Shown: positions 29,445-36,631 of the stretch, piece by piece
How positions within the stretch are numbered: the stretch's first letter is position 1
How the letters are laid out: each line of letters starts with the position of its first letter
Source of the DNA: Hoeflea prorocentri
GTDB lineage: Bacteria > Pseudomonadota > Alphaproteobacteria > Rhizobiales > Rhizobiaceae
Assembly (NCBI RefSeq): GCF_027944115.1
Contig: NZ_JAPJZI010000002.1
Coordinates: 186,001 to 250,000 of the forward strand
Reading direction: 5' to 3'
DNA length: 64,000 nt
Program-made: the position numbers and the translations under genes
Notes under the pieces: generated by a model
Databases searched by the model: none
The model's input: the letters and a program-made list of their open reading frames with translations, nothing else
Told to the model about the DNA's origin: nothing

Positions 29445-30155
29445 TCAGGCGTCCGGATCGTAAACGTAGCCTATGCCGCGGACGGTCTTGATGATCGCCG
29501 GCTTTTCCGGGTTTCGTTCTATCTTGCGCCGTAACCGGGATATGCGGATGTCAATGGAGCGGTCGAAAGGATCCCAGCTGCGGTCATGGGCCTGCTCAAG
29601 GATCTGGTCGCGGTTGAGAACACGGCCCTTGTTTTCGGCAAAGGCTTTGAGAAGATTGAATTCCATGGCGGTCAACGCAACCTCCTCGCCCTCCTTGTCG
29701 AGCATTTTGGCGGCCTCAAGATCGAGCACATAGTCGCCGAAACGGGCCGATCCAGGTTTGCTCTTATCGGCTGGCGCTTCCGCTGACTTGCGCCTCAGCA
29801 CCGCCTTTATCCGCGCTTCGAGTTCGCGCAGGTCGACCGGTTTTCCGAGATAGTCGTCGGCGCCCATCTCCAGCCCGATGATCCGGTCGACCACCTCGCC
29901 AGCGGCAGTCAGCATCACCACCGGTGTCTGGTCTTCCGTGCGCAGCGAGCGCAGTGTAGTCAACCCGTCCTCGCGCGGCATATTGATGTCGAGGATGATC
30001 AGGTCGATCCGGTTTGCGCCAAGCACCGTGCGCAGCTCGTCGCTGCTGGCGGCCTTGGAGACATTGAATCCGCGTTTGCGCAGATATTCCTGCACCATGT
30101 CGCGAACATCCCGTTCGTCGTCGCAGATCACAAGGTGATAGTGGCTGTTTTCCAT
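29445..30155 (-). CDS. OmpR-family response regulator
   Basis: A 236-residue regulator: an N-terminal receiver with phospho-accepting Asp56 (LIILDINMP) and acidic pocket at residues 12-13, the conserved lysine in YLGKPVD, and a C-terminal winged helix (about 140-236; TAMEFNLLKAF and DIRISRLRRKIE). It directly follows the hybrid kinase gene with no base between them (kinase stop at 30156), so kinase and regulator are one operon. Targets are unknown. Repeated TGTTTCA heptamers upstream of the kinase are a candidate self-regulation site. Confidence 0.92.
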   Translation of the reverse strand: MENSHYHLVICDDERDVRDMVQEYLRKRGFNVSKAASSDELRTVLGANRIDLIILDINMPREDGLTTLRSLRTEDQTPVVMLTAAGEVVDRIIGLEMGADDYLGKPVDLRELEARIKAVLRRKSAEAPADKSKPGSARFGDYVLDLEAAKMLDKEGEEVALTAMEFNLLKAFAENKGRVLNRDQILEQAHDRSWDPFDRSIDIRISRLRRKIERNPEKPAIIKTVRGIGYVYDPDA

Positions 30156-33071
30156 TTAACCGTCGTCTTTTTCACTCTTCAGGATACCATATACAAGTTC
30201 GCGCAGTTCGGCCGGCGATACCGGTTTTTCGAGATACGCGCATTGTGATTCCCGAAGCAGGCTCTGGGAAGCGACGCCCATCGTGTCGCCGGTGATAAAT
30301 GCCGTTCTTTCCAGCAAATCCGGATATTCGTCCCGGACGATTTCAAACAGTCCGCGCCCGTCGATGCCCGGCATGTTGAGATCGCTGAGCAGAAGGCCGT
30401 AGCGGTTCTCGCGCAATCTTTGCGCCGCTTCGTCGCCCGTATGAGCCAGATCGACCCGGAAACCTTCCTTTTTCAGTATTTCGGCGATCAGTTCGGCGAC
30501 CTCCACCTCATCATCCACAATCAGTGCTCTCACGCCGACGCGGTTGCGTTCGGCGTCGCCGTCTTCCGCCGGTTCGCTTTCGGCCTGTTTTGAAACGGGA
30601 AGCTGGATGACAAAGCGGCTGCCGGAAAGATATTCGGCGTCGACCCAGATATGCCCGCCATGGGAATGGATGATGCGGTGGCAAAAGGCCAGACCGATGC
30701 CGGTTCCATCGCCGACGTCCTTGGTGGTGAAGAACGGCTCGAATATGCGGGCCATGATGTTTTGCGGAATGCCAGGACCATCGTCCTCAACAATGATTTC
30801 CACGGCGTCTTCCGACTTCGACAGGCCTGTTGAAACCGTGATGCGCTTGCCCTTTCCGGCCGTCATGATGGCCTGTTCGGCATTGATGATCAGATTGATG
30901 ATGACCTGGGTGATCTGATCGGCATCGGCAATGATGTCGGGGATTTCGCGGTCAAGCGTGCAATCGATTTCAAGGCCCTCGCCATGTTTGCCGTAGCCGG
31001 CGACATCGACCGCCGTCGAGATCAAGGCGTTGACATCGGTGTTCTCCATCTTTGTGGGCTGTTGCCGTGCCATGGCCAGGAAGGTCTTGACGATCTTGGC
31101 GCACCGTTCGGCCGCGGCGCTGATTTTTTCGATACGTGCAATGCTGTCCGGGTCCGTCGCCTCTTCCCGCAGCATCAGAGAATGGCCGACAACGATCGAC
31201 AGCGGATTGTTGAGTTCATGCGCGACGCCGGCCAAAAGTTCGCCGAGTGCGGACATTTTCTCATTCTGAAACAAAAGCTCGCGCTGGCTGGATAGTTCGT
31301 CCTGCAAGGCAAGTTCGCCGGTCAAGTCGCGCGTATTGGAGACAATCACGTCTTCGCCGTTAAACTCAATCAGGCGTGCCGAGATGGAGCCCCAGAATTC
31401 CTCGCCCTTGGCGTTCAGCAGCTTGACCTTGTGTTCGTCGACCCAGCCTTTTTTGTGCAGAATGTCGATATAGGCCTGCCGTTCTCCTGCATCGACATAA
31501 TAATCCCCTGCGATTTCCACCGGTCCAAAAAGGGCGGTGGTTTCGGGACTGCGGAACAGCAGCCTGCCGGTTTCGGCATTGGTCATCTGAACGGGAACCG
31601 GGCATGCCTCCAGCACCTTGCGGATCATCGCCTCGGCTTCGTTGAGCCGGGTCAGATCGATGGTTGTCGTGACGACGACCTCCTCGCCTTTGTATTCGGC
31701 AAGGCGGCCATAGGCGGAAGCGGGAAACTCGTCGCCGTCCCTGTTGATCAGGGTGAGCTTGTAATCATCGACATGACCGTCCGCCAGGAGTGTGGTGATA
31801 TAGTCGGCCCGGTCGTCGATACTGACATAAAACTCGGTGGCGGCCTTGACCTTGCCGAACAGTTCCGCAGCGGCCGGATTGCGGTAGAGAATGCGGCCAT
31901 CACCGACGCGGGCCATGACGACCGGCGCGGGACTTGCCTCAAGAACCTGGCGGATCAGGAGATCGCCGTCCCGTTCGGCTGCCTCGGCCAGCTTGCGTTC
32001 CGTCACGTCGGTGCGCGTTACGACAAAGCCGCCCAGCTTGGTCGGATGCACGGAGACGAGGTAGCAGGTGCCGTCCGTGTGCCTGAGTTCGTAGTCCTGG
32101 ATATATTCGATGCCGTTCTCAATGCGCCCGGATACCCATTCGTCCTCATGGCCGACGGCATCGGCGTAGATGCCGCGCCGCGCGGTTTCACGCATCAGGA
32201 TTTCCCAGTCGAGCCCCGGCTCAAGGATATCCGCGACGGCGTGGTTCATTTCCTTGTAGCGTTCGTTGAACATGACGAGGCGGTTGTCTTCGTCATAAAG
32301 CGCAAACCCCTCCGACAAGGACTCGATTGCATCGCGCAGCATATCGCGGGCCTTGACCGTATCTTCCTCAAGCTCGGTGCGATCCATCAGATCCTGGATG
32401 GCATTGAGAACGATTTCATCACCGCCCCGCTCAGTCAAAACCGCACAACCGCGCACCAGGATTTCCTTGCCGGAGTCGGATTTCGTCTTAACCGGATAAT
32501 TTTCAATCGAGCCTTTGAGCTGGAGCTTGCGTAGCATTTCGATGCTGTCGTCGGTATCAAAGAAGAATTCCGAGATGGTCCGATCGTCGAGCGCGTCCGG
32601 CTTGACGTTGTAAAGCCGGTTCGAAGCCGAGTTGGAATAGAGCACTTCGCCGGTTTCGATGCGGTTGACCCACATCGGAAGCGGGATGTTTTCGACAAGG
32701 AACTGCATCAGGCTGTGCTTGTCTTTTTGCCCGGTTATATCGACGCTTATATAAAGTGTGCCGCCGTCCTGTGCGGGGCAGCTGGACAAAAGGCGCCACC
32801 GGCCATCCTTCATCCGTGCTTCCAGCGGGGCGCCACGATGGCCCTGCCAGAGCGCGGCGGCCCGTAGCCTGTCATCGGTCGTTTGTCCGATGTCGCTCTG
32901 ATTTATGCTGTCGAACCGTTCAAGATATTCGCACAGCACATCATCCCGCCCGGCCCTGCCTGAGACAATGCCGGCCAAGGTCTCGAATTCGCCGCTGGCT
33001 TCTGCAAGGGCGCCATGGGCATCAAACCGCACGAAGGCGGCACTATGGTCGATCGTCGCGTGCCTGGACAT
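30156..33071 (-). CDS. Multi-PAS hybrid sensor histidine kinase
   Basis: A 971-residue soluble kinase with no clear membrane segment. The order is: a short PAS-like N-terminus (to ~115); PAS at about 120-235; PAS at 245-365; two closely similar PAS domains at 370-475 and 480-590; a dimerisation domain with His618 (VAHELNNPLS); an ATPase domain with NLIINAEQAI and DDGPGIP; and a receiver with Asp897 (LLLSDLNMPG). PAS ligands cannot be read from sequence. No separate Hpt domain is encoded nearby, so phosphate flow from the kinase to the OmpR-type partner is not obvious. The ATG at 33071 has only a weak ribosome site. Confidence 0.92.
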   Translation of the reverse strand: MSRHATIDHSAAFVRFDAHGALAEASGEFETLAGIVSGRAGRDDVLCEYLERFDSINQSDIGQTTDDRLRAAALWQGHRGAPLEARMKDGRWRLLSSCPAQDGGTLYISVDITGQKDKHSLMQFLVENIPLPMWVNRIETGEVLYSNSASNRLYNVKPDALDDRTISEFFFDTDDSIEMLRKLQLKGSIENYPVKTKSDSGKEILVRGCAVLTERGGDEIVLNAIQDLMDRTELEEDTVKARDMLRDAIESLSEGFALYDEDNRLVMFNERYKEMNHAVADILEPGLDWEILMRETARRGIYADAVGHEDEWVSGRIENGIEYIQDYELRHTDGTCYLVSVHPTKLGGFVVTRTDVTERKLAEAAERDGDLLIRQVLEASPAPVVMARVGDGRILYRNPAAAELFGKVKAATEFYVSIDDRADYITTLLADGHVDDYKLTLINRDGDEFPASAYGRLAEYKGEEVVVTTTIDLTRLNEAEAMIRKVLEACPVPVQMTNAETGRLLFRSPETTALFGPVEIAGDYYVDAGERQAYIDILHKKGWVDEHKVKLLNAKGEEFWGSISARLIEFNGEDVIVSNTRDLTGELALQDELSSQRELLFQNEKMSALGELLAGVAHELNNPLSIVVGHSLMLREEATDPDSIARIEKISAAAERCAKIVKTFLAMARQQPTKMENTDVNALISTAVDVAGYGKHGEGLEIDCTLDREIPDIIADADQITQVIINLIINAEQAIMTAGKGKRITVSTGLSKSEDAVEIIVEDDGPGIPQNIMARIFEPFFTTKDVGDGTGIGLAFCHRIIHSHGGHIWVDAEYLSGSRFVIQLPVSKQAESEPAEDGDAERNRVGVRALIVDDEVEVAELIAEILKKEGFRVDLAHTGDEAAQRLRENRYGLLLSDLNMPGIDGRGLFEIVRDEYPDLLERTAFITGDTMGVASQSLLRESQCAYLEKPVSPAELRELVYGILKSEKDDG

Positions 33072-33092
33072 GGCAAAGTCCTATCCCGCCAG

Positions 33093-33239
33093 TGTTTCAG
33101 TCGGTTTTCATTTCTGCGGCCGATTGTTTCAATTGTTTCAGCCAATGACAAATTCCGGCGCGAACGAAAACCTAAATCATTGAAACTGCGAGCGCTTTGA
33201 GTTCGCGCCGTTGCCGTTCGTTGGGCAACAAATGAAACA
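33093..33239. promoter_or_regulatory. Cluster of TGTTTCA heptamers in the kinase/hydrolase intergenic region
   Basis: TGTTTCA occurs at 33093-33099, 33125-33131 and 33134-33140, and as its reverse complement TGAAACA at 33233-33239. Copies two and three are 9 bases apart, close to one helical turn, like the tandem half-sites of OmpR-type regulators. The region lies between the divergent kinase and hydrolase genes. Binding by the linked response regulator is inference. Confidence 0.45.
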
Positions 33240-33320
33240 CGGAACGGGCTGATCTGAAAACGAAACGAAACCTGCAAGCTGCAAATAGCGGTCAAACGAA
33301 CACACGACAGGAACAGTCCG

Positions 33321-34157
33321 ATGACCGTACGTCTTTCCAGCCCCGCCCATGCGAACGCACCCATCGTTGCGCTTCATTCGTCCGCGTCGAGCGGTGCACA
33401 GTGGAGCAGCCTTGGCGAAGACCTGCATGGCCGCTTTGATGTCATGGCGCCCGATCTGCCCGGATATGGCGCACCGTCCCTTGATGATGCGGGTTCGGCC
33501 GGTACGCAGCCGATTGCAGAGCGGATTGTCCGGCAGGTCGAGACATTTGGCGTTCCCGTTCACCTGGTCGGTCATTCCTTTGGGGCGACGGTCGCCCTGA
33601 AGATCGCGTTGATGCGGCCCGATCTGATCAAGAGCCTGACACTTTATGAGCCGGCTGCCTTTCATTTTCTGCAGTGGGGCGGTGAGGAAGAGCTGCGTCT
33701 CGGTACAACGATCAAAGCAGTCCGGGATGCATTGGCGGCCCATGTCGCCGAGGGCGCGCCGGAAGCGGGAATGCGGGCCTTTATCGATTTCTGGAACGGC
33801 GCCGGGGCTTTCGACAGTTTCGGCTCGAAGACGCAGGAAAGGTTCGCCGCGATGGCCGGGTCCATCCTGGACGACTTTGCCTGCGGGTTTTCCGAAAGCT
33901 GGACGCTTGAAGACCTAAGCGCTCTCAAAATGCCGACACTGATGATGATGGGGATGGAGTCGCCTGCTATTGCGCAGCACGTGGCCATCGAGATCGCCGG
34001 TGCGATCCGGGACGCTAGGCTTGCGATGCTGCCGGGACTTGGACACATGGCGCCGGTCTTTGAGCCGGGCTGGGTCAATCCGCGCATTTTTGAACATATC
34101 GCCGGAACCGAACGCCCGGTTGCCAATTGCTACTGGCCCGAAAGGTCAGCGGCGTAA
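33321..34157 (+). CDS. Alpha/beta-fold hydrolase
   Basis: A 278-residue alpha/beta hydrolase. The nucleophile elbow is GHSFG with Ser86, the oxyanion-hole region is LHSSASSG, and the general base histidine is in PGLGHMAPV near residue 250. The third acid residue may be the glutamate in MGMESP instead of the more common aspartate. Size and motifs resemble haloperoxidase- or esterase-type members, but the substrate is not recognisable. It is followed after 67 bases by a methyltransferase gene with its own good ribosome site; the two may be co-transcribed. It diverges from the hybrid kinase gene. Confidence 0.82.
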   Translation: MTVRLSSPAHANAPIVALHSSASSGAQWSSLGEDLHGRFDVMAPDLPGYGAPSLDDAGSAGTQPIAERIVRQVETFGVPVHLVGHSFGATVALKIALMRPDLIKSLTLYEPAAFHFLQWGGEEELRLGTTIKAVRDALAAHVAEGAPEAGMRAFIDFWNGAGAFDSFGSKTQERFAAMAGSILDDFACGFSESWTLEDLSALKMPTLMMMGMESPAIAQHVAIEIAGAIRDARLAMLPGLGHMAPVFEPGWVNPRIFEHIAGTERPVANCYWPERSAA

Positions 34158-34224: not shown

Positions 34225-35055
34225 ATGAACATCATAGCACCTGTCAGGGAAGCTCCCGACTTTGCCGCAATCAAGCAAAAGCAGAATGCGGCCTGGTCGT
34301 CCGGAGATTACAAACGGATCGGAGTGACTTTGCAGCTCACCGGTGAAGAGCTTGCCGAGGTTGTCGACATGGCGCCCGGTTCCAAAGTTCTCGATGTTGC
34401 GGCCGGCAATGGCAATGCGACGCTGGCCTTTGCGCGCCGTTGGTGCGATGTCACATCGACGGACTATGTCGGGACGCTGCTTGAGGGCGGGCGCCAAAGG
34501 GCCGATGCCGAAGGTCTTGATGTGAGCTTCAAGGTTGCGGATGCGGAGGACCTTCCCTTCGCCGACGGTTCATTCGATGCGGTTGTGTCGACCTTCGGGG
34601 TGATGTTTACGCCAAATCAGGATCAGTCGGCCTCGGAACTGGTTCGCGTTTGCCGCTGTGGCGGGAAGATCGCGATGGCCAACTGGACGCCGGACAGTTT
34701 TATCGGTGCCCTGTTCCGCACGCTTGGCAAACATGTCCCGCCGCCGGCAGGCGTGCAGTCTCCGGCGCTTTGGGGAGACCGCAAGTGGATCGGCGAAACA
34801 TTTGCAAAAAGCGCCCAGTCGATTTCCACGACGGTGAAGCGTTTCAACTTCCGCTATCATTCGCCGCAGCAATTCATCGGTTTCTTCCGAACCTATTACG
34901 GCCCGGTGCACAAGGCATTTGCCGCCGTGGGCAAGGAAGGTCAGATCGCATTGAATGACGACATCCTGGAAACGATAGCGCAATTCGATGTCGCGAAGGA
35001 CGGTACAATGCATGTGCCTTCGGACTATGCCGAAATCGTCATCGAAAAGGCCTGA
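34225..35055 (+). CDS. Class I SAM-dependent methyltransferase
   Basis: A 276-residue methyltransferase of the UbiE/methyltransferase_11 type. Motif I is VLDVAAGNGNATLAFA (about residues 55-70). The post-motif acidic residues and FADGSFDAVVSTFGVMF follow at the usual spacing. The substrate is unknown. The start ATG at 34225 follows GAAAGGAG; a longer frame runs back through the hydrolase gene and is not used. A GC-rich hairpin follows the gene. Confidence 0.85.
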   Translation: MNIIAPVREAPDFAAIKQKQNAAWSSGDYKRIGVTLQLTGEELAEVVDMAPGSKVLDVAAGNGNATLAFARRWCDVTSTDYVGTLLEGGRQRADAEGLDVSFKVADAEDLPFADGSFDAVVSTFGVMFTPNQDQSASELVRVCRCGGKIAMANWTPDSFIGALFRTLGKHVPPPAGVQSPALWGDRKWIGETFAKSAQSISTTVKRFNFRYHSPQQFIGFFRTYYGPVHKAFAAVGKEGQIALNDDILETIAQFDVAKDGTMHVPSDYAEIVIEKA

Positions 35056-35063
35056 TTTGCGTT

Positions 35064-35085
35064 CCCCGGCGGAACTCCGCCGGGG
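35064..35085 (+). terminator. Hairpin after the methyltransferase gene
   Basis: CCCCGGCGG (35064-35072) and CCGCCGGGG (35077-35085) form a 9-bp stem with an AACT loop, starting 8 bases after the stop. No clean T-run follows, so it may act with Rho or only mark the transcript end. Confidence 0.55.
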
Positions 35086-35145
35086 CCGCTCCCGATTTCG
35101 CAACTTACGCTTGGTTTCAGTATTTGTGGTTTTTGGTAAAGATCG

Positions 35146-35159
35146 TTGAAATAACTCAA
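35146..35159. promoter_or_regulatory. FNR/FixK-type box upstream of hemoglobin-cyclase unit
   Basis: TTGAAATAACTCAA matches the Crp/Fnr half-sites TTGA-N6-TCAA exactly. A TACAGT -10-like hexamer lies at 35181-35186. A start of transcription near 35193-35194 would put the box centre at about -41.5, the standard class II activator position. The hemoglobin ATG follows at 35213. This points to control by oxygen limitation or nitric oxide. Confidence 0.7.
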
Positions 35160-35212
35160 CAATTCAATCAAATAGAAATTTACAGTGGTTTCGGTCATGG
35201 GAGCACCGAATA

Positions 35213-35572
35213 ATGAATGAGCAAAGTCTTTTCGAGAAATATGGCGGCTTCGCAAGAATTAGCCGTGTTGTCCTGAGTTTCTATGACACGCTGCTCGACA
35301 GCGACGATATCGGACCGTTCTTTGACGATATCGACATGTCCCGCATGGTTGATCATCAGACCAAATTCATCGCTTCGCTTCTCGGAGGCCCGGCCTCCTA
35401 CACCGACAATCAGCTTCGTCAGTTGCATTCGCATCTTCCGATCGAGGACGACCATTTCGACGAACTCAAAGTTGTCCTGGGCGCGACCCTCAAGGACCAT
35501 GAATTCACCGATCCGGATATAATCGCCGTCCTGCAGGAATTTGAGAAGCGGCGAGGCCTCATCGTAGGATAA
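35213..35572 (+). CDS. Truncated hemoglobin, group I-like
   Basis: A 119-residue 2-on-2 globin. The B10 tyrosine is Tyr24 (LSFYDTLL), the E-helix region MVDHQTKFIASLLGGP follows, and the proximal heme histidine is His72 (LRQLHSHLPI). Family members bind O2, NO or CO and may detoxify NO or serve as sensors. The gene ends 3 bases before a PAS-cyclase gene, so both are made from one message. An FNR/FixK box lies 54 bases upstream. I infer that the globin and the cyclase work together, which would be a heme-gas sensor split over two proteins. Confidence 0.88.
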   Translation: MNEQSLFEKYGGFARISRVVLSFYDTLLDSDDIGPFFDDIDMSRMVDHQTKFIASLLGGPASYTDNQLRQLHSHLPIEDDHFDELKVVLGATLKDHEFTDPDIIAVLQEFEKRRGLIVG

Positions 35573-35575
35573 GAG

Positions 35576-36631
35576 ATGTCCATCGAAACCATAAATGAAC
35601 AGTTGCTACGTGCCATCGGTGTCGGAGTGGCTCTTCTGGACGGCAACAGTTTCAATTTTCGTTTTCACAACGACACGTTCGAGGAATGGTTCGGCAAACC
35701 CGAGGCGGATGCGCGGCTGGGCGATGTTTTCAGCGAGCTGGATATTGACGCGTTGCGCAAGGGCCTGAAGGAGAACGGCGGCTATACCGGCGAAACCCGG
35801 TTCAAGAAAAAGCGCCGAACGATGGCGGTTGCGCTGGATTTTACTCTGACCGAAGAGGGCGGCCAGGAGATTGCCGTCCTGGTGTGCCAGAACATAACCC
35901 GCATCCGCGAGCTGGAATCGATGATCGATTCCTATTCCATGATGGTCGAGCGCAACAATCGGGAATTGAAGCGCGAAAAGGAGCAGGTGGAAAAGCTGCT
36001 TTTGAACATCATGCCGCGGGCCGTCTATGAAGAATTCAAGACCTTTGGCGTCGTGACACCGCAGCTCTACGACCCTGTGTCCGTCCTGATGCTCGATTTT
36101 GTCGGCTTCACCGATATGGTCGCGTCCGCCGATCCAAGTGTGACGGTGACGGAACTCAACGACATCTACAGCGCCTTTGACCGGATCGGCGAGCAGTTCG
36201 GCTGCGAGCGGATCAAGACGATCGGCGATGCCTATATCACTGTCGCCGGCCTTCCCGATCCGACACCCGATCATTCAAAGGCCGCCGCCAATGCCGCGAT
36301 CCGGTTTATCCGTTACCTGGAACGGCGCAATTCGTCTCACCCGAACCAGTGGCGTTGCCGTATCGGCCTTGCGACCGGCGCGGTGGTCGGCTCTGTCGTC
36401 GGCATCCAGAAATATGTCTATGATATTTTCGGCCCGGCAGTGAACCTTGCAACACGGCTGCAGGAGTTTTCCGAACCGATGCAGATCAGCGTTCAGGACG
36501 AAATGGCGGCTACGTTGCGCGAGCACTTTGAGCTTGCCAATCTCGGATCGCGCGATATCCGCGGTTTCGGCCAGAAGGATGTGTGGCATTTGCTTGATAC
36601 GGCCAAGACCATGAAAAAGGCCGGCAAATAG
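35576..36631 (+). CDS. PAS and coiled-coil class III adenylate cyclase
   Basis: A 351-residue soluble cyclase. Residues 1-110 form a PAS-like sensor, 110-150 a heptad-type signalling helix ending LLLNIMPRAVYEEF as in soluble guanylate cyclases, and 165-340 the class III catalytic domain. Catalytic residues are complete: metal-binding Asp174 and Asp218, and Asn290 and Arg294 (NLATR). The base-selecting pair is Lys214 (RIKTIGDAY) and Asp283 (VYDIFG), which predicts ATP as substrate and cAMP as product. It is coupled to the truncated hemoglobin gene 3 bases upstream. Heme-gas control of the cyclase through that globin is inference. Confidence 0.9.
   Translation: MSIETINEQLLRAIGVGVALLDGNSFNFRFHNDTFEEWFGKPEADARLGDVFSELDIDALRKGLKENGGYTGETRFKKKRRTMAVALDFTLTEEGGQEIAVLVCQNITRIRELESMIDSYSMMVERNNRELKREKEQVEKLLLNIMPRAVYEEFKTFGVVTPQLYDPVSVLMLDFVGFTDMVASADPSVTVTELNDIYSAFDRIGEQFGCERIKTIGDAYITVAGLPDPTPDHSKAAANAAIRFIRYLERRNSSHPNQWRCRIGLATGAVVGSVVGIQKYVYDIFGPAVNLATRLQEFSEPMQISVQDEMAATLREHFELANLGSRDIRGFGQKDVWHLLDTAKTMKKAGK

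Follow-up and report, generated by a model that had tools for sequence, protein, structure and literature searches.

A conserved gene pair encoding a truncated hemoglobin and a PAS-containing class III cyclase is a candidate split heme gas sensor

A group-1 truncated hemoglobin and a PAS-containing class III adenylate cyclase are encoded next to each other in the window, by which we mean the whole 64,000-nucleotide stretch of Hoeflea prorocentri DNA that we analyzed. Judged from sequence and predicted structure, the two proteins are likely to constitute a split heme sensor-cyclase whose sensor position is taken by a truncated globin, and a regulatory link from the globin to the cyclase is likely as well. 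The pair itself is old. Beyond the preliminary description of this DNA, which had proposed a gas-regulated cyclase with its sensor in trans, we found a histidine at position E10 of the globin, a hybrid histidine kinase and response regulator that accompany the pair, wide conservation, and a sub-clade in which the cyclase is degenerate.

The two genes are separated by 3 bases, and their coordinates, lengths, and spacing are exact. The globin open reading frame begins with an ATG at 35213 and ends with a TAA at 35570-35572, a GAG spacer follows, and the cyclase frame runs from an ATG at 35576 to 36631. These coordinates, together with Pfam, bear out the preliminary description's outline of a 119-residue globin, a 3-base gap, and a PAS/coiled-coil cyclase. 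No fused globin-cyclase frame was found among the loci examined, and the window has two frames with a stop between them. The gene before the pair encodes a SAM-dependent methyltransferase (34225..35055, plus strand) and ends 157 bases before the globin gene, and a perfect 10-bp GC-rich hairpin 3' of it (35064..35085) may separate it from the globin-cyclase unit. Given this hairpin and the 157-base spacing, the globin and cyclase may form their own transcription unit. The hairpin is absent from the terminator scan's list, the promoter and terminator scan gave results near chance, and five aligned sequences had no clear regulator site in common in the 160 bases 5' of the globin. The base composition of the window is unremarkable except for a dip in G+C to 51.9% at 35000-35999.

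A globin scan of GTDB contigs yielded 41 related loci. In all 41, the cyclase lies directly 3' of the globin on the same strand, with a gap of -11 to +7 bases (most commonly 3, in 17 loci, followed by 4 and -11, in 9 each); one cyclase, that of L042, is cut by a contig end and was left out of the cyclase counts. For whole genomes, we used N-terminal residues 1 to 160 of the cyclase as the query, which were picked to avoid ordinary cyclases. This profile matched in 8 of 199 genomes of the family, and the same 8 had an adjacent globin of at least 140 bits; five further family genomes had weak globin matches only (at most 62.3 bits) and no such cyclase. In the class sample, 17 of 385 genomes matched, each with a globin match beside the cyclase (one of them, G225, a broken pair). 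Because the window's genome belongs to both samples, these are 24 distinct genomes. A globin of at least 98 bits was present in 18 class genomes, 16 of which have the cyclase. For the globins of G237 (128.7 bits) and G508 (98.7 bits), no such cyclase was found nearby or elsewhere in the genome at the thresholds used, and the frame adjoining the G237 globin encodes a Rieske-type oxygenase. The cyclase of G406 has one stop. In G225 (L112 and L116), the adjacent globin and cyclase genes are each broken, so that both partners have decayed together. The phylum sample (398 genomes), which was searched with the globin only, gave matches above 100 bits in three, namely the window's genome, G352, and G812, the latter two both of the window's class and both with the cyclase. 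For haloarchaeal plasmid truncated hemoglobins (30-38% identity), no cyclase was seen in the 1 of 21 neighborhoods viewed.

The preliminary description had named an unlinked pair in relatives as the finding that would tell against its proposal. We looked for this and found the cyclase beside the globin in 8 of 8 family genomes, 17 of 17 class genomes, and 41 of 41 loci, counts that also led us to reject chance adjacency of the two genes. Conservation across genomes, the check it had suggested, gave a cyclase that adjoins a globin wherever the cyclase was found, in neighborhoods that change between lineages. That the pair is kept merely as part of a conserved locus was likewise rejected: in 16 divergent pair loci (L114-L129), no neighbor family apart from the pair and overlapping frames is common to more than 6. 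Locus-wide conservation does hold in part for the closer relatives, in which the kinase is found in 40 of 41 loci and a hydrolase in 29 of 41. The family present in 6 of the 16 divergent loci (by single linkage) includes a winged-helix/TPR regulator. In a genome of the same genus, two such regulators lie close to its divergent pair (L114:3780-5309 and L114:8160-9728); L118 and L121 have relatives of them nearby, and L115 has a weaker one. The globin and cyclase trees have distance correlations of 0.86-0.90, which we rejected as evidence for partnership because linkage alone would give such values.

The globin (35213..35572, plus strand, 119 amino acids) is confirmed as a group-1 (TrHbN) truncated hemoglobin. 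It scored 52 bits against the Bac_globin profile (cut-off, 21), and its model (pLDDT, 82.6) has the 2-over-2 globin fold, with Foldseek TM scores of 0.83-0.89 to HbN and Tetrahymena truncated hemoglobin chains (0.88 to Mycobacterium tuberculosis HbN); the nearest solved structures are the TrHbN proteins of Tetrahymena, Synechocystis, and M. tuberculosis. Binding of heme and of a gas is predicted. The key residues are Tyr24 (B10), Met45 (E7), His48 (E10), Gln49 (E11), and His72 (F8). His72 and Tyr24, which had been put forward as heme-ligating, align with F8 and B10; these two, His48, and Gln49 do not vary among the 54 distinct paired globins. In assembling this set, nine rows were dropped as repeats of another globin's first 110 residues; one of these, L045, has a degenerate cyclase, so that the 54-globin set and the tree described below understate degeneracy. 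The broken pair of G225 was kept out of the residue counts.

We compared these 54 globins with 64 unpaired truncated hemoglobin matches from the same genome samples, a control that leans on one phylum family (f188) and is phylogenetically unbalanced. His at E10 is found in 54 of 54 paired and 2 of 64 unpaired globins, the latter having Lys in 53, Met in 6, Arg in 2, and another residue in 1. The same holds for further positions: Asp47 (54 paired versus 1 unpaired), Lys51 (54 versus 0), Thr50 (52 versus 2), Tyr10 (51 versus 0), Phe13 (53 versus 0), and Arg113 (52 versus 0). The helix-E motif D-H-Q-T-K (codons 47-51; 35351..35365, plus strand) is a signature of the cyclase-paired globin clade. 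The comparison omits L136 as well as L088 and L090, two clade globins without a cyclase that both have His at E10. These two globins, which stand outside both sets, differ at the Thr50 and Lys51 positions. Since the G237 and G508 globins keep this His without a cyclase, it marks the clade and not pairing alone. Also outside the 54 is the globin of Novosphingobium pentaromativorans US6-1, which carries Gln in place of Lys51.

In the alignment, His48 falls opposite a His of Synechocystis GlbN that we take to be the sixth heme ligand of that protein, His46. Position E10 may supply a ligand to the heme iron, and cyanobacterial GlbN is hexacoordinate via its distal His, the release of which is coupled to a conformational change (PMC11904497, in excerpt); in Chlamydomonas THB1, Lys E10 is the distal heme ligand (PMC7082302, in excerpt). 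Because the E10 His is a known sixth ligand in GlbN, a ligand-displacement switch is likely here, and His48 is likely to be the sixth ligand of the window's globin, as predicted from the alignment. Tyr at B10 together with Gln at E11 favors O2. The gas for this globin is most likely O2, and NO is possible. M. tuberculosis HbN has a high O2 affinity (PMC7082302, in excerpt).

HbN, a TrHbN, also has high NO dioxygenase activity according to the same excerpt (PMC7082302), which is a reason to ask whether the window's globin is an enzyme, such as an NO dioxygenase or a redox protein. It would then be co-expressed with a cyclase that senses otherwise, via its PAS domain, with no contact between the two proteins. 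Possible electron donors exist, in that part of the 41 loci have an alternative setting with an OsmC-like protein and FAD enzymes, one type of FAD oxidoreductase lying near the pair in 12 of 41 loci and a second type in 6 of 41, as well as in US6-1. However, none of the five window neighbors scanned is a reductase, in the sampled genomes this type of cyclase was seen only together with the globin even as neighborhoods changed, and the surface residues of helix E and the C terminus are conserved solely in the paired clade. We therefore consider an enzymatic globin with an independent cyclase unlikely.

Other truncated hemoglobins turned up in the same samples. The second one of the window's own genome (L002) scored 20.1 bits with the paired-globin profile. 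An unpaired one adjoins a 2Fe-2S/FAD/NAD oxidoreductase (L097:495-1493), which suggests an enzymatic truncated hemoglobin with its own reductase. Several genomes of the window's class encode a CheA with a truncated hemoglobin domain, Met at E10, between the Hpt and dimerization domains (L095:970-3354, L099:1057-2427, and L100:1033-3354; L101 is located by its start and L096 by match position only). This globin is possibly a built-in gas sensor of the chemotaxis kinase, and our literature search found nothing relevant to the arrangement. Additionally, the open frames L139:1782-2729 and L145:1372-2238, from phylum genomes outside the window's class, each encode two truncated-globin domains arranged in tandem.

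The cyclase (35576..36631, plus strand, 351 amino acids) has three parts. A PAS-type sensor or docking domain covers residues about 8-106 (35597..35893), by the model and by a Pfam PAS_8 match to residues 8-59 (24.2 bits; cut-off, 21.8); a single long helix in the model, the signaling helix or coiled coil, covers residues 107-145 (35894..36010); and the class III catalytic domain covers residues 161-338 (36056..36589), all on the plus strand. The protein scored 141.6 bits against the Guanylate_cyc profile (cut-off, 21.9), and the six catalytic residues D174, K214, D218, D283, N290, and R294 are all present. We take D174 and D218 to be the metal-binding Asp residues, K214 and D283 the purine-selecting pair, and N290 and R294 the transition-state pair. 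Lys214/Asp283 is presumably the adenylate-type pair that marks an ATP user; what we take to be the guanine-selecting signature, Glu/Cys, is not present. The best sequence matches are adenylate cyclases, e.g., AC8 and Rv1625c. By profile and residues, then, the protein is assigned to the class III adenylate cyclases, with cAMP as its predicted product. In the whole genome labeled G000 (5 Mb), there are twenty class III cyclase matches, and cAMP signaling may therefore be highly branched in this organism.

Residues 3-342 of the cyclase model could be aligned with residues 274-660 of human soluble guanylate cyclase (sGC) alpha, with a Z of 22.3 and an rmsd of 7.2 for 316 residues. Since the alignment spans nearly the whole chain, PAS domain, coiled coil, and cyclase domain come in the same order as in sGC. 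For the catalytic domain alone, other cyclases gave better scores (Z up to 25.2), and an sGC chain ranked third among the Foldseek matches. The preliminary description had likened the signaling helix to the sGC linker. The HNOBA profile agrees to the extent that it matches 21 of 21 cyclase members at E values up to 0.1 (best, 6.1e-5), but the match in the window's protein (the end of the profile, on residues 97-152, 17.1 bits) falls below the cut-off of 23.4, and signaling helices of this kind are widespread (PMC1592074, in excerpt). LLLNIMPRAVYEEF was rejected as proof of sGC kinship, the motif alone not being diagnostic of sGC. The wider comparison with sGC stands for the architecture, as the model alignment shows, and does not extend to the adenylate-type residues or to the best matches. 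Because Pfam found no HNOB (H-NOX) domain in either protein at E values up to 1, the likeness to sGC is one of architecture and not of membership.

PAS domains often bind cofactors, and the true sensor could be the PAS domain of the cyclase, the globin merely supplying heme, O2, or redox equivalents. Such a role would fit the invariance of the N terminus and of Cys104 in the 41 closer cyclases, though several divergent pairs do not have Cys104. Pfam named just a general PAS family, and the globin's own signature argues that the globin is the sensor; we regard sensing by the PAS domain as very improbable.

The reading that we prefer, and hold to be reasonably probable, is that the two proteins form a split heme gas sensor in which the globin acts in trans and a displacement switch at His48 alters cAMP synthesis. 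The truncated hemoglobin would be the sensor subunit, its resting heme likely held by His72 (F8) and His48 (E10). When a gas binds, in all likelihood O2 with Tyr24 and Gln49 holding it, His48 would be displaced, and the release of His48 would shift helix E so that the conserved surface of D47, T50, and K51 meets the partner differently. Movement of helix E is proposed on the GlbN precedent, and the residues neighboring His48 are those that mark the paired clade. The partner would be the class III adenylate cyclase, probably as a homodimer, with its PAS domain as the likely docking site in physical contact with the globin. The long signaling helix would then pass the change to the catalytic dimer, and cAMP synthesis would be altered, whether up or down. 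In favor of a split sensor are the linkage in 41 of 41 loci, the changing neighbors, the signature of the paired globins, the GlbN precedent, the sGC alignment, and the precedent of H-NOX proteins acting in trans. Against it are the two clade globins without a cyclase, the catalytic losses in one sub-clade, and the Gln at the Lys51 position in US6-1.

In the closer relatives, a two-component system accompanies the pair. A hybrid PAS histidine kinase (30156..33071, minus strand, 971 amino acids) is found in 40 of 41 related loci, with identity of at least 39%; the exception, L032, has just 478 upstream bases. An OmpR-type response regulator (29445..30155, minus strand, 236 amino acids) occurs in 27 of the 41; many of the remaining loci break off within the kinase. 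Between kinase and pair lie an alpha/beta hydrolase (33321..34157, plus strand) and the methyltransferase, the latter in 27 of 41 loci. The intergenic region between kinase and hydrolase (33072..33320) contains TGTTTCA-type repeats, possible regulator sites (e.g., 33125-33140), which are conserved in five of five aligned loci, window included, and are candidates for binding sites of the response regulator. Over the whole window, TGTTTCA-N3-GTTTCA with up to 3 mismatches is not enriched (14 versus 12.0 expected), and the sole exact copy in the window is inside this conserved region. On plasmid pLA3 of US6-1, an example of the alternative setting, the order is OsmC, two FAD oxidoreductases, globin (WP_007014575.1), cyclase (WP_007014576.1), an ATP-binding protein that we have taken as the kinase, and the regulator.

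Such constancy raises the question of whether the cyclase serves as an adaptor, relaying the state of the globin to the kinase, with cAMP secondary or absent. Of the 199 family genomes, 6 have a match to the window's kinase of at least 1000 bits, and each of these carries the pair; in US6-1 a cyclase with Ile at 290 and Gln at 294 is directly followed by kinase and regulator. The other two family genomes with the pair have a kinase of 428.9 bits beside it (G025) and one of 394.6 bits elsewhere (G085). However, the next best family kinase (634 bits) belongs to G114, which lacks the pair, and a second kinase copy of G066 lies away from the pair. Furthermore, kinase and regulator are both present in one of the 16 divergent loci (L125), with distant kinase matches in two, within about 6 kb. 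The window's cyclase also keeps all six catalytic residues, and most cyclases in the tree keep the transition-state pair. We thus consider a purely adaptor-like cyclase distinctly improbable. Because the kinase is rare in divergent loci and is so distributed in the family, we interpret the pair as the more ancient core, which the kinase module joined afterwards.

We next consider the cyclases that have lost catalytic residues. We aligned 41 cyclases, that of the window and those of 40 loci. All of them have Asp218 and Asp283, and 40 retain Asp174. Position 214 carries Lys in 37 and Arg in 4, Asn290 is retained in 32 (lost in 9), and Arg294 in 35. In a 55-row tree, made by a quick search and with a midpoint root only, Asn and Arg are both kept in 45 rows; the ten rows with a loss require two changes and fall within the clade that bears the kinase, and the deep lineages keep both residues. 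The loss therefore looks derived. The rows with a loss all keep the globin's four key residues, and in L048, L050, L051, L052, L054, and US6-1 the kinase is 3' of the cyclase on the same strand. Either a reduced set of residues is enough for the degenerate cyclases, or there is another output of the complex, possibly through the kinase; in this derived sub-clade, the function may be something other than cAMP synthesis. We put forward tentatively, and with more doubt than belief, that the pair is a globin-based counterpart of sGC whose cyclase became a pseudo-enzyme in one lineage (US6-1, Croceicoccus, Defluviimonas, Pseudohalocynthiibacter, and others), where a complex of gas-responsive globin and dead cyclase would signal via the adjoining histidine kinase. 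If so, a class III cyclase would have been converted to serve as the receptor scaffold of a two-component pathway. The sub-clade is a natural experiment on what the complex does without catalytic residues.

Truncated hemoglobins are common in bacteria, and to our knowledge few have a known partner or pathway. The pair gives one sub-family of them a conserved partner gene and a helix-E signature, which makes a role as a gas sensor directly testable, and it offers a compact model for work on in-trans control of a cyclase by a heme protein. We know of no dedicated signaling partner for the hexacoordinate TrHbN proteins GlbN and THB1. These have the fold and an endogenous distal ligand in common with the pair's globin, His in GlbN and Lys in THB1 (PMC11904497 and PMC7082302, in excerpt), whereas the pair's globin carries the paired-clade residues D47, T50, K51, and R113. 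Our literature search, with subscription journals mostly outside its coverage, found no recognizable description of a bacterial truncated hemoglobin-cyclase pair, and the portion of a survey of truncated hemoglobin evolution available to us mentions none (PMC4720485). The claim that no such system had been described thus appears to hold for the bacterial pair and has to be qualified for HemAC-Lm, a globin-coupled adenylate cyclase of Leishmania major (PMC4534343, in excerpt). HemAC-Lm likewise joins a globin to an adenylate cyclase, but it is one eukaryotic protein, whereas the pair is two bacterial genes with a PAS domain in the cyclase. The HemAC-Lm globin is not known to be of the truncated kind.

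Bacterial globin-coupled sensors (e.g., DgcO/YddV) also tie globin-based O2 sensing to a second-messenger enzyme; they have a 3-over-3 globin and a diguanylate cyclase in one chain (PMC8846402, in excerpt), whereas the truncated globin of the pair is 2-over-2 and would act in trans. Regulation in trans is known for H-NOX proteins with diguanylate cyclases and kinases, e.g., H-NOX and Dgc1 of Dinoroseobacter shibae (PMC8846402, in excerpt). As in the pair, the heme sensor gene in those systems is separate from, and adjacent to, the gene of its enzyme; the pair differs in using a globin and not H-NOX, and a class III cyclase in place of a GGDEF protein or kinase. With sGC, the pair has in common a PAS domain, a coiled coil, and a class III catalytic domain in identical order and, as we propose, heme-based gas sensing. 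If the proposal is true, two heme folds without kinship, the H-NOX of sGC and the globin of the pair, have each become linked to a PAS/coiled-coil class III cyclase. The pair differs from sGC in having no H-NOX domain, its sensor being a globin on a separate polypeptide, and in having one cyclase gene, the product of which is probably a homodimer with Lys/Asp residues of the adenylate type.
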